Shown piece after piece: positions 26,542 through 35,211 of a stretch of DNA of 35,698 nucleotides; the stretch's first letter is position 1; every line of letters starts with the position of its first letter. The notes beneath the pieces were generated by a model. It searched no databases, was not told the DNA's origin, and saw only the letters and a list, made by a program, of their open reading frames with translations. The stretch is from a virus, in IMG/VR virus record IMGVR_UViG_3300035670_009334, positions 1 through 35,698 of that record; one strand, 5' to 3'. Both the position numbers and the translations under genes were made by a program.

Positions 26542-27372
26542 TTATTCCTCTGGGTGATTTAGTATAGATTCTGGAGTTAGTAATGGACTGTCTACTGTTT
26601 GATCAGCATAGTTGTGGTATTCTGAAAGTTTTTGTTTGGTCTGTTTGGTAGCCAAAGCTAATATTTCCATTTCTTTGCCTTCTTTCTCTCGTATAGCTTC
26701 GTCTTCAAGCATTCGAATCAAACCTATCCAGCTACTCTTGCCGTCTTCTATTCGTTTAATTCTTTGTTCGCGAGTTGCCTTAAGATCTTTACTAATTTTT
26801 TGCTGTTCATTAAGTAATTTGGTATATTCATTAGTATAATTAGCGATACTGTTGCGCGTGAAACTAAGCTGTGTTTCGAGATTGGCCAGTTTTGGAATAT
26901 CTCGTTGATCTTCGGGTTTAGCATATTCTTGGTCTACTTGTTGTTGTAATTTGTCAATTTCAGCAATATGCCTTTTGCGTTCTTTCATACTTCTATTAAT
27001 AAGAATATCGATGGTAATAAATTGTTTAATTTGTAATTCTTCTGCAGGAAGAACATCCTCTCTAAACTGTTTTATCAAACTAATCCATGTATCTTCAAAG
27101 TAGTCTAATTCTCCCGTGCTTTTATCAAATTGTCTTTCTATCTCTAGCCAAAAGGTTTTGGTCTTAAGTTTTTGTCGTAACATTTTGTCATTTTCAAAAT
27201 TGTCCGACGAAATGTCGATTTTGGATTCTCGAACATATCTTTCTATAGGCTCGGGGTTTCTATTTAAATGTAGGGCGATATCATCAATAGACATGCTATT
27301 AATGTTTTGTCGGATAAAGCTTTCTTCTTCTAAAGAGAGCTGACCTCTTTTTTTGGGCGCTTTACGATTCAT
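26542..27372 (-). CDS. Probable terminase small subunit
   Basis: 276 aa. The N-terminus has a helix-turn-helix-like segment (LSLEEESFIRQNINSMSIDD, IALHLNRNPEPIERYVRESK); the middle is long coiled coil (KERKRHIAEIDKLQQQVDQE, NSIANYTNEYTKLLNEQQK). A DNA-binding N-terminus plus a helical oligomerisation core and a position upstream of the large subunit fit a small terminase subunit, which recognises the genome for packaging. Three inserted genes separate it from the large subunit. It overlaps the sigma-factor gene by 11 bases. Identification rests on architecture and context; it could be another DNA-binding structural protein. Confidence 0.6.
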   Translation of the reverse strand: MNRKAPKKRGQLSLEEESFIRQNINSMSIDDIALHLNRNPEPIERYVRESKIDISSDNFENDKMLRQKLKTKTFWLEIERQFDKSTGELDYFEDTWISLIKQFREDVLPAEELQIKQFITIDILINRSMKERKRHIAEIDKLQQQVDQEYAKPEDQRDIPKLANLETQLSFTRNSIANYTNEYTKLLNEQQKISKDLKATREQRIKRIEDGKSSWIGLIRMLEDEAIREKEGKEMEILALATKQTKQKLSEYHNYADQTVDSPLLTPESILNHPEE

Positions 27373-28045
27373 AATAATTATGTTTTTGTAATATCTCTGT
27401 TATAATTGAGCATAATTTATTAAGGTCTGTTTTGTAAACCTTGTCGCCGTACTTTAATTTAAGATAGGTTTCTCTGTGTTGTGCAGGGATTTCCTTATCT
27501 AAAATGTCTATGATTTGTTGGTCGGCTAAACTAGACAAGATATTATCATCAAAAGATATACTGGCCGAAGCATCTTTAACTTCTTCCATGCCAATAGGTT
27601 TCATAATATTCTTTTTGTTGTTGTTACGATTACTCCAAGAAGAATATTCTTCACACTCACTTTTGTCTGTAAATTCTAAACATTGGCTGGAAGACTTTTT
27701 GCAGTGAGGGTCATATAGGGGGCATGTGAGACATGGTTTATCTGGGCGTTGATAATTATCTCGTTTGTAATTAAAAAGACGATTACGCACGTGGGTCCAT
27801 AAGAAATTTTCTAATGGTCTGGTATTATCGTACTTTTCTAAGCCCTCTAAAGCAAAAATAGCTGCTTGTTGTTTCATGTCCTCATAAGAATGATATCCAA
27901 ATTTAAATTTGTGGCCAAGTCTTTTGCTAATATTTTCTAAAACAATGAGGAACTCTTCTTCGGAAACTCCGTTTGGTAGCTGGCTATTCTGCTTCTTTTT
28001 CTTCTTGGGGCGTATTGCTTTCTTGGTTTTGGTTGGTTTCTTCAT
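27362..28045 (-). CDS. Phage sigma-70-family RNA polymerase factor
   Basis: 227 aa. After a Lys-rich N-terminus, residues 42-100 look like sigma region 2: LGHKFKFGYHSYEDMKQQAA, FALEGLEKYDNTRPLENFLW, HVRNRLFNYKRDNYQR. A Cys cluster follows (Cys105, 108, 115, 122, a C-x2-C-x6-C-x6-C spacing), a possible zinc site. The C-terminus (AQHRETYLKLKYGDKVYKTD, LNKLCSIITEILQKH) could be a reduced region 4. This resembles T4 gp55-like late sigma factors, which redirect host polymerase to phage late promoters. It is near the start of the structural operon. Start at 28045 lacks a good ribosome-binding site and overlaps the 61-aa gene by 62 bases, suggesting coupling. Confidence 0.78.
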   Translation of the reverse strand: MKKPTKTKKAIRPKKKKKQNSQLPNGVSEEEFLIVLENISKRLGHKFKFGYHSYEDMKQQAAIFALEGLEKYDNTRPLENFLWTHVRNRLFNYKRDNYQRPDKPCLTCPLYDPHCKKSSSQCLEFTDKSECEEYSSWSNRNNNKKNIMKPIGMEEVKDASASISFDDNILSSLADQQIIDILDKEIPAQHRETYLKLKYGDKVYKTDLNKLCSIITEILQKHNYYES

Positions 28046-29007: not shown

Positions 29008-29087
29008 ATAAAATGTTGATATATAAGGAGTTATGTAAAAAATGCAGGCGAAAATTTGACCTAACTCCTTTACTGACAACAACTTAC
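29008..29087 (+). repeat. 80-bp bipartite element, copy 1
   Basis: Two 27-bp imperfect inverted-repeat units begin at 29008 and 29061, exactly 53 bp apart. Unit 1 is the most degenerate (left arm ATAAAATGTT, right arm AAGGAGTTAT); unit 2 has arms CTAACTCCTT and AACAACTTAC. The 26-bp spacer ends in AAAATTTGAC. It stands upstream of the first sigma-54-like promoter. Confidence 0.85.
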
Positions 29088-29120
29088 GTTCAGTTTGCCT
29101 GAGCAAGTGCTGTGCCATTT

Positions 29121-29160
29121 GCAAAATGCAACACTTTTTGCAAAATGCAATGCAAAATGC
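29121..29160 (+). promoter_or_regulatory. Three GCAAAATGC sites (putative activator sites), block A
   Basis: Identical 9-mers GCAAAATGC at 29121-29129, 29140-29148 and 29152-29160, some extended to the palindrome TTGCAAAATGCAA. They lie about 105-140 bp upstream of the predicted start site of the sigma-54-like promoter, the usual distance for an enhancer-binding activator. Confidence 0.65.
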
Positions 29161-29234
29161 TACAGTAACGGTTTTGTAAAATATACAATCGCAAAAAATG
29201 CCTATACGTATTGCTCAAAAAATATTTTTCCGAA

Positions 29235-29250
29235 TGGCACGGTATGTGCA
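29235..29250 (+). promoter_or_regulatory. Sigma-54-like promoter A
   Basis: TGGCACGGTATGTGCA: GG (29236-29237) and GC (29248-29249) are separated by the canonical 10 bp of -24/-12 promoters. It is preceded by AAAAAATATTTTTCC and followed by a purine-rich leader to ATG at 29284. It is one of three closely similar promoters in this array. Confidence 0.65.
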
Positions 29251-29283
29251 TTTATATATGGTAAGAAAGAAAGAGGAAAGAAA

Positions 29284-29481
29284 ATGAAAACTTCGAATAC
29301 CTATCGTCGCCATACCCAAGTGTTCATGGGTTGGCAGATCAGTTTCCTAAGCAATGGACAGGTGTACAACGGAAAGTTAGATACTCGCTATCGTTCATGG
29401 GTTGATGCTCAACTTCGCGTTCAGCGTCAATATCCTGATGCTACCGAAATCAGCATCGTGAAGATCATGTCGGAAGACTGA
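29284..29481 (+). CDS. Small paralogous protein, array family 1
   Basis: 65 aa from ATG at 29284, placed there because the purine leader (GAAAGAAAGAGGAAAGAAA) directly precedes it; the longer open frame runs through the promoter and activator sites. HTQVFMGWQISFLSNGQVYN is followed by a helix (RSWVDAQLRVQRQYPDATE). It is clearly related to the 71-aa protein at 32013 (HIFMGWEVSF, YVQSRYPNAT) and shares the W...G...YP layout with the one at 30256. Probably a small alpha/beta domain; function unknown. Confidence 0.75.
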   Translation: MKTSNTYRRHTQVFMGWQISFLSNGQVYNGKLDTRYRSWVDAQLRVQRQYPDATEISIVKIMSED

Positions 29482-29498
29482 TCGCCCGATAGGGGGGA

Positions 29499-29526
29499 TT
29501 GACAAATAAAGTTTTTTTGGTAGACT
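29499..29526 (+). promoter_or_regulatory. Sigma-70-type promoter (TTGACA-16-TAGACT)
   Basis: TTGACA 29499-29504, spacer of 16 bases, TAGACT 29521-29526, then a polypurine leader to the gene at 29555. A CCC/GGG mini-hairpin lies just upstream (29485-29494). Confidence 0.8.
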
Positions 29527-29554
29527 GAAAGAAGAAAGAAAGAGAGAGTTGATT

Positions 29555-29770
29555 ATGTTGAAGAAGTTTGTGAATGCTAAGGCTCAGATTTGGGGTTACG
29601 AGGCTTCGGCTTGTACGATTGTTTACGAGGTTTCAACGGGTAAGTTTTTCGCTGAATGTGAATCTACTCTTGCTCGTCGTCGTTTAACCGATTCAAACTA
29701 TGAAGAAGTGTTGAACGATATGTTTTACGATTACTGCTGTGAAAATGCAGACTACATGGGAGTTTCATGA
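29555..29770 (+). CDS. Small protein of unknown function
   Basis: 71 aa from ATG at 29555; a TTG two codons earlier (29549) is possible but the ATG sits better after the GAAAGAGAGAG leader. Sequence MLKKFVNAKAQIWGYEASAC, then strands (TIVYEVSTGKFFAECEST), a basic LARRR and an acidic helix (NYEEVLNDMFYDYCCENADY). Four Cys are present but not in a zinc pattern. Its stop overlaps the next start (ATGA). No family recognised. Confidence 0.72.
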   Translation: MLKKFVNAKAQIWGYEASACTIVYEVSTGKFFAECESTLARRRLTDSNYEEVLNDMFYDYCCENADYMGVS

Positions 29771-29919
29771 TGACGATTCAAGTACAAAATACGATTCGCC
29801 GCCTAGTTGCTCACCACGGGTATAGTGCTACATTTGTACAGGATATGGGAGAGGGTATAAGTTTGTACAGTATCGGTGGCATGTACTACCGCATTAGGGG
29901 GGATGGTACGATTCTCTGA
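29767..29919 (+). CDS. Small protein, translationally coupled
   Basis: 50 aa (MMTIQVQNTIRRLVAHHGYS ... YYRIRGDGTIL). ATG at 29767 overlaps the preceding TGA, so coupling supplies the start. The pattern of an N-terminal amphipathic helix followed by three beta strands (ATFVQDMG, SLYSIGG, YYRIRGDG) looks like a compact real fold. Ends just before the second 80-bp element. Unknown function. Confidence 0.6.
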   Translation: MMTIQVQNTIRRLVAHHGYSATFVQDMGEGISLYSIGGMYYRIRGDGTIL

Positions 29920-29928
29920 AAGATTGAC

Positions 29929-30008
29929 GTAAACCCTTGTGACATAAGGAGTTACGACAAAAATTCGCCCGCAAATTTGACGTAAGTGCTTGCTACATAA
30001 GGAGTTAC
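29929..30008 (+). repeat. 80-bp bipartite element, copy 2
   Basis: Units at 29929-29955 (arms GTAAACCCTT / AAGGAGTTAC) and 29982-30008 (GTAAGTGCTT / AAGGAGTTAC), starts 53 bp apart. Spacer ends GCAAATTTGAC, nearly the same as in copy 3. It separates the genes ending at 29919 from the promoter at 30205. Confidence 0.92.
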
Positions 30009-30075
30009 AGCTAATCCGCTCGTTTAGCAAACGCTGTGCCAAAAGAGCACCACAAGATATAGTGGTTGAACTGTT

Positions 30076-30136
30076 GCAAAATGCTACAAAAGCGTCTATA
30101 TATAGGTTGCAAAATGCAAAAACTGTAGCAAAATGC
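30076..30136 (+). promoter_or_regulatory. Three GCAAAATGC sites, block B
   Basis: GCAAAATGC at 30076-30084, 30109-30117 and 30128-30136, flanked by TT..TA or TA..TG so that they extend as inverted repeats. They lie about 99-150 bp upstream of the start site predicted for promoter B, as in block A. Confidence 0.65.
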
Positions 30137-30204
30137 TGCACCTACCAATGGGGGGTGATACTCAAAAATGCCTTGTTTTGTAGGCTCAAAAATATTTTTG
30201 GGTT

Positions 30205-30220
30205 TGGCACGACAAGTGCA
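30205..30220 (+). promoter_or_regulatory. Sigma-54-like promoter B
   Basis: TGGCACGACAAGTGCA with GG (30206-30207) and GC (30218-30219) 10 bp apart; preceded by AAAAATATTTTTGGGTT and followed by TTATATAG and the leader GGTAGAAAGAAAGAG. Confidence 0.65.
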
Positions 30221-30255
30221 TTATATAGTAGGTAGAAAGAAAGAGAGTGTTAGAT

Positions 30256-30471
30256 ATGCAAAAGAGTGTTTCAGTCAACGATTTCATCGGTAGCCTTCCC
30301 CGGATTCGCAGCCGTCGAATCTGGCATGTGATCATCGACGGTGTGATCGTACAGGGTGTTTCCGCTAAGGATAACCGCAAGGCTACGGCCGAAGCGTATA
30401 TCGCAAGCAAGTATCCTGGACAAGCGTTCACCCTGAAGTTTCACGAATGGCGTATGGGTGCCCCCCGATAG
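30256..30471 (+). CDS. Small paralogous protein, array family 1 (divergent member)
   Basis: 71 aa from ATG at 30256; a GTG at 30247 is in frame but the ATG is preferred. Sequence MQKSVSVNDFIGSLPRIRSR, RIWHVIIDGVIVQGVSAKDN, then a helix and YPGQAFTLKF. The W..I..G....G......A...I..KYP layout parallels the proteins at 29284 and 32013, suggesting a shared small fold. Its TAG stop lies in the loop of a CCCC/GGGG hairpin directly before the next promoter. Unknown function. Confidence 0.72.
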   Translation: MQKSVSVNDFIGSLPRIRSRRIWHVIIDGVIVQGVSAKDNRKATAEAYIASKYPGQAFTLKFHEWRMGAPR

Positions 30472-30477
30472 TGGGGC

Positions 30478-30505
30478 TTGACGCGGCGGGATTTTTTACT
30501 AGACT
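30478..30505 (+). promoter_or_regulatory. Sigma-70-type promoter (TTGACG-16-TAGACT)
   Basis: TTGACG 30478-30483, 16 bases, TAGACT 30500-30505, directly after the GGGG arm of the stop-codon hairpin; leader GAAAGAAAGAAAGAGAGAG to ATG at 30529. Confidence 0.78.
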
Positions 30506-30528
30506 GAAAGAAAGAAAGAGAGAGAAAA

Positions 30529-30702
30529 ATGAGTTGCCCTGATCCCCTTCACGATTATGCCGATTACGAAATGAACGTTCTGTATATGAGCGATTGTTGT
30601 GGAGCATATATGAGCGATGAGCATATCTGCTACGAAATCTGCCCCGATTGTCGTGAACACTGCGAAGTGTTGACTGAGGAATATGCAGTATCCCCCAACT
30701 GA
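30529..30702 (+). CDS. Cys-rich small zinc-finger-like protein
   Basis: 57 aa (MSCPDPLHDYADYEMNVLYM ... EEYAVSPN). SDCCGAYMSDEHICYEICPD with CREHCE gives a CC...C...C..C...C arrangement, a zinc-ribbon-like pattern I know from small phage proteins (CCGA...CP.C.EHCE). The start follows a purine leader and a TTGACG promoter; the TGA stop lies inside a CCCC/GGGG hairpin. It probably binds zinc and may touch nucleic acid or protein. Function unknown. Confidence 0.75.
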   Translation: MSCPDPLHDYADYEMNVLYMSDCCGAYMSDEHICYEICPDCREHCEVLTEEYAVSPN

Positions 30703-30707
30703 GGGGA

Positions 30708-30735
30708 TTGGCGACACAAGATTTTTTGCTAGAAT
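30708..30735 (+). promoter_or_regulatory. Sigma-70-type promoter (TTGGCG-16-TAGAAT)
   Basis: TTGGCG 30708-30713, 16 bases, TAGAAT 30730-30735; preceded two bases earlier by the GGGG of the stop hairpin and followed by ACGAAAGAAAGAGAG before ATG at 30768. Confidence 0.7.
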
Positions 30736-30767
30736 ACAACCAACACGAAAGAAAGAGAGAAAAGAAA

Positions 30768-31085
30768 ATGAAGTTTGAAATCATTGAAAATGCAAAGCGT
30801 CAAGCGTTCCTGTGCTTCAAGGGTATCGCCATTCCACACCAGCCATCCCTCGCAAGCGGGGTCTATGGCCCGATTCGTAGCGAAAAGGTTTTGAAGTTCA
30901 ATCGTAAGGCTATGCGTACACTGGCCAAGCGTACACTAGAAAAAGCTGACCCCCGCCTTGTGGGGGGTGAGGATCGTATGCGGTTCAAGGTTGGCAAGCC
31001 CGGTTCTCGCGAAAGGGTGGAGGCGTTGGCTATGCAATATGCCAGCCTGTCCGAAAACGAGATGTCCCCCTTTATGGGGGATTGA
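30768..31085 (+). CDS. Small basic protein of unknown function
   Basis: 105 aa from ATG at 30768, chosen for the leader GAAAGAAAGAGAGAAAAGAAA; the frame is open upstream through the promoter. Begins MKFEIIENAKRQAFLCFKGI; the centre is Arg/Lys-rich (KFNRKAMRTLAKRTLEKADP) and helical, ending ALAMQYASLSENEMSP. A CCCCC/GGGGG palindrome occurs within the gene (30953-30970) and another (31066-31080) just before the TGA. Possibly nucleic-acid binding from charge. No family recognised. Confidence 0.75.
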   Translation: MKFEIIENAKRQAFLCFKGIAIPHQPSLASGVYGPIRSEKVLKFNRKAMRTLAKRTLEKADPRLVGGEDRMRFKVGKPGSRERVEALAMQYASLSENEMSPFMGD

Positions 31086-31119
31086 TGCTCGACCCCTCTG
31101 TGGTGGGGTGTACATTTGT

Positions 31120-31138
31120 ACCGGCTGAACCAGCCGGT
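31120..31138 (+). terminator. Stable GC hairpin, probable transcription end
   Basis: Perfect stem ACCGGCTG / CAGCCGGT (31120-31127 and 31131-31138) with a three-base loop. No T-run follows, so termination is only possible. A paralogous hairpin precedes element 4. Confidence 0.45.
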
Positions 31139-31164
31139 TGACATATGATGACAGCTAGCCAGCC

Positions 31165-31244
31165 GTAAACCCTTGCTGCGTAAGGACTTACGACGAATTT
31201 TCGCCCGCAAATTTGACGTAACTCCTTTGATACCAACAACTTAC
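31165..31244 (+). repeat. 80-bp bipartite element, copy 3
   Basis: Units at 31165-31191 (arms GTAAACCCTT / AAGGACTTAC) and 31218-31244 (GTAACTCCTT / AACAACTTAC), starts 53 bp apart, with an AT-rich spacer ending GCAAATTTGAC. It lies in a 405-base gene-free gap that also holds the activator-like sites and promoter C. Confidence 0.92.
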
Positions 31245-31296
31245 GACGAGTGCATTGTGGTGCCTGATTTTTAGGCACACTATATATGGGGGTGGT

Positions 31297-31368
31297 GCAT
31301 TATGCTACACTTTGCAGTTTTAGGCCGAGATACGCGACGCAAAATGATACACTGCTGTAGCGTTTTGC
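31297..31368 (+). promoter_or_regulatory. Three GCAAAATGC-like sites, block C
   Basis: Variants of the same 9-mer: GCATTATGC at 31297-31305, GCAAAATGA at 31339-31347 and GCGTTTTGC at 31360-31368 (GTAGCAAAACGCTA when read on the other strand). They lie about 105-170 bp upstream of the start site predicted for promoter C. Less conserved than in blocks A and B. Confidence 0.5.
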
Positions 31369-31443
31369 TACGCTCAAAAACTAGGCACAAAAAGTAGCAT
31401 AGCGTTTTTCCCGTGAAAATCGCACAAAAAATATTTTTCGGTT

Positions 31444-31459
31444 TGGCACGGCGATTGCA
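31444..31459 (+). promoter_or_regulatory. Sigma-54-like promoter C (exact consensus)
   Basis: TGGCACGGCGATTGCA agrees with the published -24/-12 consensus TGGCACG-N4-TTGCW at every position, with GG (31445-31446) and GC (31457-31458) 10 bp apart. It is preceded by AAAAAATATTTTTCGG and followed by TTATATAGAGG and the polypurine leader of the gene at 31491. Confidence 0.7.
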
Positions 31460-31490: not shown

Positions 31491-31688
31491 ATGAAGATTG
31501 GTGATATCGTCAATGTGGTCTATGCAACCGGTGAGATTTTCGAAGGTACGGTTGAGAATATTCGGAACATTCCGGGTAAGGGTATTCTGTTGCTCATCAA
31601 TGATGAGGCGGTAGGATACCGATCAGTCTACGCTAACAAGTGTGGTCACATAGTCTACCGGTCACCGGGAGCAGTCACCCCTGATTGA
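31491..31688 (+). CDS. Small beta-rich protein
   Basis: 65 aa (MKIGDIVNVVYATGEIFEGT, then VENIRNIPGKGILLLINDEA and GYRSVYANKCGHIVY). The strand pattern and GD-V....G....G.V motif suggest a small SH3-like barrel as in KOW or Tudor folds; this is a structural guess. The leader AAGAAAGAGAGAGTGAAAA precedes ATG at 31491. The TGA stop lies in the loop of an ACCCC/GGGGT hairpin fused to the next promoter. Confidence 0.72.
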   Translation: MKIGDIVNVVYATGEIFEGTVENIRNIPGKGILLLINDEAVGYRSVYANKCGHIVYRSPGAVTPD

Positions 31689-32496: not shown

Positions 32497-32576
32497 GTAA
32501 ACCCTTGTCATATAAGGACTTAGGGCAAAATCGCGCCACCCAACTTGACGTAAGTTGTTGCAGAATAAAGGCTTAG
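32497..32576 (+). repeat. 80-bp bipartite element, copy 4
   Basis: Units at 32497-32523 (arms GTAAACCCTT / AAGGACTTAG) and 32550-32576 (GTAAGTTGTT / AAAGGCTTAG), starts 53 bp apart. The gap to the next gene (to 32653) holds no convincing promoter; ATTGGC...TATGTAGAAA-like remains resemble the promoter at 33577 but lack a -35. Confidence 0.9.
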
Positions 32577-33442: not shown

Positions 33443-33522
33443 GTAAACCCTTGCTACGTAAAGACTTACGGCGAGCGAGGCGGGCCGGCCGCGACGTAAC
33501 TCCTTTGATACCAATGACTTAG
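33443..33522 (+). repeat. 80-bp bipartite element, copy 5 (GC-rich spacer)
   Basis: Units at 33443-33469 (GTAAACCCTT / AAAGACTTAC) and 33496-33522 (GTAACTCCTT / AATGACTTAG), starts 53 bp apart. The spacer is very GC-rich (GGCGAGCGAGGCGGGCCGG with a GGCCGGCC palindrome), unlike the AT-rich spacers of copies 1-3. Confidence 0.92.
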
Positions 33523-35131: not shown

Positions 35132-35211
35132 CTAAACCCTTGCCGCCAAAGGAGTTATGGCGAGCGGGGCCCGCCGGCCGAGTCGTAAGTGCTTATCTGC
35201 TAATGACTTAG
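35132..35211 (+). repeat. 80-bp bipartite element, copy 6 (GC-rich spacer)
   Basis: Units at 35132-35158 (arms CTAAACCCTT / AAGGAGTTAT) and 35185-35211 (GTAAGTGCTT / AATGACTTAG), starts 53 bp apart. The spacer begins GGCGAGCGGGGCCCGCCGG, very like copy 5. AAAAAATATTTTTC follows at once (35215-35228), as before the sigma-54-like promoters, but here leads to a TTGACA promoter. Confidence 0.92.

Follow-up and report, generated by a model that had tools for sequence, protein, structure and literature searches.

Promoters of the sigma-54 class cannot fire without an activated ATPase. Among phage promoters, the T4-type middle promoters place a MotA box upstream of an AT-rich -10. General sigma-54 promoters such as those of glnA and psp carry GG-N10-GC at -24/-12 and an enhancer 70-150 bp upstream, a distance reported for many promoters of this class (PMC3844500). 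In the qrr promoters of the Vibrionaceae, which use sigma-54 and LuxO, a core similar to TTGGCACG-N5-TGCATTATATA is combined with TTGCAAAATGCAA enhancers ~100 bp upstream, as in the qrr gene of Photobacterium. The published LuxO site is TTGCAW3TGCAA (PMC11443567; PMC10162802), the ChIP site of V. cholerae qrr1 is ttgcaaaatgcaa (PMC10328515) and SypG of V. fischeri uses sites overlapping those of LuxO (PMC10162802). Gene expression in the quorum-sensing vibriophage VP882, which is described as encoding its own receptor VqmA (PMC10426928, PMC8284805), is possibly tied to host density signals.

We analysed a 35.7 kb virus fragment (record IMGVR_UViG_3300035670_009334; 35,698 nucleotides), which we call the window. 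The minus strand of its left part encodes terminase, portal and tail proteins, and small plus-strand genes form an array in its right part (28-35.7 kb). Comparative sequence evidence strongly supports the presence of sigma-54-type enhancer-dependent promoters in this array. Unlike glnA and psp, these are phage-borne, are repeated in a small-gene array and always have TATATA in the melted region. Unlike the qrr promoters, they precede protein-coding genes with an A/G-rich leader and not a regulatory RNA, and their enhancer half-sites are looser (TAGC or TTGC). VP882 has its own receptor; here a host activator that reads an enhancer sequence would provide the link. In our search of mostly open-access literature we found no phage with such a class of sigma-54 promoters.

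Predicted core promoters in the window

The initial annotation had pointed to a recurrent TGGCACG-N5-TGCATT, and the recurrence was borne out on the plus strand at 29235, 30205 and 31444, with GG and GC exactly 10 bases apart in all three cases. We refer to these sites as P1, P2 and P3. The following lines give the predicted promoters, the A/T tracts before them (also kept in relatives), the small genes assigned to them (none with a known family) and, as a contrast, the sigma-70 promoters of the array.

29217-29229, plus strand: A/T tract AAAAAATATTTTT, between enhancer and P1
29235-29250, plus strand: P1, predicted sigma-54-type promoter (-24/-12), TGGCACGGTATGTGCA, predicted start ~29261
29284-29481, plus strand: small gene, 65 aa, assigned to P1
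29499-29526, plus strand: sigma-70 promoter TTGACA-N16-TAGACT, serving a small gene nearby
30188-30199, plus strand: A/T tract AAAAATATTTTT, before P2
30205-30220, plus strand: P2, predicted sigma-54-type promoter, TGGCACGACAAGTGCA, predicted start ~30231
30256-30471, plus strand: small gene, 71 aa, assigned to P2
31426-31438, plus strand: A/T tract AAAAAATATTTTT, before P3
31444-31459, plus strand: P3, predicted sigma-54-type promoter, TGGCACGGCGATTGCA, perfect consensus, predicted start ~31470
31491-31688, plus strand: small gene, 65 aa, assigned to P3
30478, 31694, 33577, 34050, 35241 and 35534: starts of further sigma-70 promoters of the array

As had been noted, the site at 31444 is a perfect match to TGGCACG-N4-TTGCW; those at 29235 and 30205 have one mismatch each (G for the first T of TTGC). 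The described surroundings were also confirmed: a tract of the type AAAAATATTTTT lies upstream of each site and an ATG follows ~30-34 bases downstream (29284, 30256, 31491). The A/G-rich leader begins near the predicted start. Allowing at most one mismatch to the 16-base TGGCACG-N4-TTGCW, we counted six sites in the window; across 40 dinucleotide shuffles the mean was 0.225 and the maximum 2. With three mismatches allowed, the count was at chance level (36 found, 34 expected), hence only the strong matches are informative. Most other leader-bearing genes of the array are preceded by plain sigma-70 promoters (TTGACA-N16/17-TAGACT). No Qrr RNA was detected near the array in the part of the window that was searched for RNA families, where the sole match was a chance snoRNA.

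Conservation of the spacing in relatives

We scanned the 18-base core TGGCACG-N5-TGCATTATATA through 2.9 million viral contigs, where it matched 42 stretches; a second pattern added few. The same portal protein (45-100% identity) was present in 19 of 45 records that had been picked by the DNA motif alone, and the phage family is present in hundreds of metagenome contigs. No named phage relative was found by DNA, by the portal or by a 504 aa gene, and the terminase search returned only distant phages (Bacillus, Microcystis and others) at ~25% identity. When 51 records were searched at up to two mismatches, the sites fit the sigma-54 consensus including the A/T after GC. To test the promoter class, gene starts in relatives were gathered via the A/G-rich leader and not via the promoter motif. 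For the base counts on these promoters, the rule by which sites were collected did include TGG, GC and the W next to it; no such rule applied to the leader list and the test of alternative spacings.

Of the 292 leader matches, which include chance matches in coding sequence, 132 had a sigma-70 pair. Reading the remaining matches with TATATA just upstream by eye, we found GG-N10-GC in all but four: three of these starts had an evident sigma-70 -10 (TATAATG) next to a weak -35, and the fourth match fell in an unrelated frame. The initial annotation had named relatives with TATATA but without GG/GC as evidence against its reading; no TATATA leader promoter lacking sigma-70 hexamers had lost GG/GC. 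Its expectation that GG-N10-GC would be conserved in related contigs was likewise confirmed, the spacing being rigid across the leader promoters. With distances of 2-13 allowed, the spacing from TGGCA to YGCW was 7 in 29 out of 29 countable cases among 30 leader promoters of relatives, while the distance from GC to TATA slid between 1 and 8 and that from GC to the leader between 13 and 20. A rigid GG-GC with a sliding TATA is what a sigma-54 promoter predicts and the opposite of what a TATA-led promoter predicts. No sigma-70 -35/-10 pair accounts for the sigma-54-like genes, and a few relatives show a weak TTGGCA-N17-TATGGT overlap.

One record without a portal match (G044; loci L127 and L128) carries four perfect TGGCACG-N5-TGCATT, some of them after dyads like GTACACTTAAGTGTAC, and perhaps represents a second phage lineage with sigma-54-type promoters.

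Exchange with sigma-70 promoters

The gene at 30256 is preceded by a sigma-54-like promoter in the window, as are its orthologs in L302, L309, L322 and L091; the orthologs in L050, L037, L299, L316, L361 and others have sigma-70 promoters (TTGACA or TTGCAA, then TATAAT). Orthologs of the gene at 31491 likewise have either promoter class, in relatives often sigma-70. Because the place held by the sigma-54-like site in some orthologs is taken by a sigma-70 promoter in others, the site fills the promoter position. This switching of some genes among relatives makes the evolution of signal gating open to direct study.

Candidate enhancer sites upstream

Upstream of each promoter we identified candidate enhancer sites, which the initial annotation had overlooked:

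29119-29131, plus strand: perfect TTGCAWWWTGCAA, upstream of P1 (LuxO-site scan)
29138-29150, plus strand: perfect TTGCAWWWTGCAA, upstream of P1 (LuxO-site scan)
29150-29162, plus strand: site with two mismatches, upstream of P1
30074-30086, plus strand: GTTGCAAAATGCTAC, one mismatch, upstream of P2
30107-30119, plus strand: perfect TTGCAWWWTGCAA, upstream of P2 (LuxO-site scan)
30126-30138, plus strand: TAGCAAAATGCTG, core at 30128, upstream of P2
31295-31307, plus strand: weaker enhancer-like site TGCATTATGCTAC, upstream of P3
31357-31371, plus strand: enhancer dyad GTAGCGTTTTGCTAC, upstream of P3

The window contains three perfect LuxO sites TTGCAW3TGCAA (upstream of P1 and P2) compared to none in 200 shuffles; the dyad of P3 is a variant. 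In 29 of 30 sigma-54-like promoters, between one and three copies of GCAAAATGC (or GCGTTTTGC and similar) were located 73-149 bp before the -24 element, whereas none of the 116 sigma-70 promoter regions examined in these arrays had the GCAAAATGC-type core, so the enhancer is linked exclusively to the sigma-54-like class. The sequences are related, thus the 30 promoters do not represent 30 independent events, although both groups were taken from the same contigs. The logo of 79 copies with at most one mismatch to the core is the dyad TGT(T/A)GCAAAATGC(T/A)ACA. A composite pattern of enhancer and promoter matched at least 120 viral stretches, while a control in which the enhancer core was reversed matched 20; a perfect dyad combined with the promoter was too strict a pattern and matched none of the viral contigs.

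Likeness to qrr promoters

In the bacterial genomes scanned with the core alone, only a Photobacterium locus had the enhancer upstream among the matches listed, and these matches gave no host. Rfam assigns the Photobacterium locus to qrr; TTTGCAAAATGCAAA precedes TTGGCACGATGCCTGCATTATATA there by 95 bases. The composite enhancer pattern was absent from 34 genomes with the core. The composite pattern matched in 11 of 398 Pseudomonadota genomes and the control once; among ten loci examined, three were qrr genes and several others precede a conserved 77-residue protein. Since the composite pattern recovers qrr promoters, the arrangement of enhancer and core marks real sigma-54 promoters in bacteria. 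Three loci of non-Vibrio-looking Pseudomonadota (L428, L429, L431) show a LuxO-like enhancer and a sigma-54-like core before the 77-residue protein, which starts with M(TM)NSALL.

The initial annotation had tied expression to host nitrogen or stress state. This was not supported, as the enhancer is of a kind similar to LuxO/qrr. An activator other than LuxO itself could also act here, because SypG uses overlapping sites in V. fischeri and because the phage enhancer logo accepts TAGC besides TTGC half-sites.

Proposed source of RpoN and the activator

No RpoN was found in 40 virus records searched, and no match to PF00158, PF04552 or PF02954 (sigma-54 activator, RpoN, Fis-type HTH) in family records of uncertain completeness and up to 230 kb. 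The family loci examined had no GAFTGA-like motif in an activator context. As the sampled relatives encode neither protein, RpoN and the activator would have to come from the host. The portal protein had no match in 274, 296 and 296 bacterial genomes (samples of Gammaproteobacteria, the Vibrio order and Bacteroidota), which proves nothing about the host. The 230 kb relative encodes a polymerase, PhoH, ThyX and glycosyltransferases, and no photosynthesis genes were among its listed families. Actinomycetota and Cyanobacteria rarely have rpoN (PMC12316311), so hosts from these groups would argue against a sigma-54 model. A viral contig of a different kind, 339 kb long (record G017, L250), contains a sigma-54 core match as well as an 832-residue frame with the activator domain PF00158 (E 1e-11).

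A second class of sites

Three strong matches on the minus strand of the window had also been overlooked:

29102-29117, minus strand: second-class sigma-54-like site TGGCACAGCACTTGCT, pointing left, away from P1
30026-30041, minus strand: second-class sigma-54-like site TGGCACAGCGTTTGCT, pointing left, with the P2 enhancer between it and P2
33530-33545, minus strand: second-class sigma-54-like site TGGCACAGTATTTGCT, pointing left, adjoining a sigma-70 promoter

The P2 enhancer could serve both P2 and the site at 30026-30041 because it is located between them. In relatives this class has the form TTGGCAY-N4-TTTGCW and lacks TATATA; the sigma-54 spacing (TGG-N10-GC) is kept in 56 of 58 sites. 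The sites are often paired, either divergent (16-18 bases apart) or convergent (2-4 apart), and in L050, L048 and others they often lie beside sigma-70 promoters. Of the seven such sites in the 230 kb relative, six fall within 161-167 kb, inside the small-gene array. No genes evidently served by these sites were obvious on the minus strand of the window or in L050, L048 and others.

Interpretation and alternative explanations

The rigid GG-N10-GC in relatives, the sliding TATATA and the upstream enhancer array support the proposed sigma-54 reading, and judged by these features P1-P3 are quite likely to belong to that promoter class. A point against is that TATATA is conserved as well, though sigma-54 promoters do not need it. 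TATATA could be the -10 of a sigma-70-family promoter in which a phage or host activator at TGGCACG replaces the -35, similar to the T4 middle promoters, which share the box upstream of an AT-rich -10. TATATA occurs in every promoter of the class, and a sigma-70 start would likewise fall at the beginning of the leader. However, the gap between TGGCAC and TATATA is only ~11-12 bases and variable whereas that between TGGCAC and TGC is constant, there is no -35 at 16-18 bases, and the second-class sites keep their spacing where TATATA is missing. We therefore regard this explanation as quite improbable. Membership in the T4 class proper was rejected, as the distance from box to -10 is not fixed (GC to TATA varies from 1 to 8) and, unlike in T4, an enhancer array lies far upstream.

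An unlikely alternative, though one that would account for the divergent and convergent second-class pairs, which are unusual for promoters, is that phage repressors or replication proteins use TGGCAY-N5-TTGCW and GCAAAATGC as operators, which match sigma-54 and LuxO sites by convergence. The first-class sites are solitary at the promoter position, where they replace the sigma-70 promoters of orthologs, and their composite pattern is common to bacterial qrr promoters. Recognition by a phage-encoded sigma factor appears very improbable: it draws on a Sigma70_r2 match in the window (27362-28045, minus strand; E 0.0012, below Pfam's cut-off) and a Sigma70_r4 match (3e-11) in the 230 kb relative, but the conserved pattern is the sigma-54 consensus including the W after GC, sigma factors of that kind do not use an enhancer array such as accompanies these sites, and by eye no such promoter precedes the minus-strand structural genes. 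The weak sigma region 2 protein at 27362-28045 heads the structural gene block and is possibly a late sigma factor.

We consider it probable that P1-P3 are sigma-54 promoters that depend on their enhancers and on a LuxO-type activator of the host; taken separately, the enhancer sequences make an activator of this type plausible. Host RNA polymerase with RpoN, whose recognition of these sites we infer, would bind -24 (TGGCAC) and -12 (TGC) as a closed complex, and the activator ATPase would bind two or three GCAAAATGC dyads ~75-150 bp upstream, with the A/T tract probably helping the DNA to bend. Opening of the complex by the activator would then allow transcription to start ~12 bases past GC, where the A/G-rich leader of the small gene begins. 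The phage would in this way split one gene array into a constitutive and an activator-gated class, as plain sigma-70 promoters serve both the genes next to these and, elsewhere in the family, the orthologs of these genes. The viral genes behind these switches probably run only with a particular host regulator active, and because an activated ATPase is required, infection would respond to one specific signal of the host. That this signal is quorum sensing is a testable possibility and not a result. Tentatively, a widespread phage family may have adopted qrr-type promoters, so that a phosphorylated LuxO-like activator of the host would turn on a subset of small genes according to cell density without a phage-encoded sensor.

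Further dyads in the array

The intergenic regions of the array also contain ten imperfect dyads GTAA-N4-TT-N7-AA-N4-TTAC, mostly as tandem pairs 53 bases apart:

29061-29087, 29929-29955, 29982-30008, 31165-31191 and 31218-31244: GTAA-TTAC dyads
32497-32523, 33443-33469, 33496-33522, 35132-35158 and 35185-35211: GTAA-TTAC dyads

RNA hairpins were rejected, as by eye the middle parts do not pair consistently; for this reason we read the dyads as DNA sites, perhaps bound by a protein. Similar dyads were observed near sigma-54-like cores in phages without a portal match (L094, L096, L110, L117).
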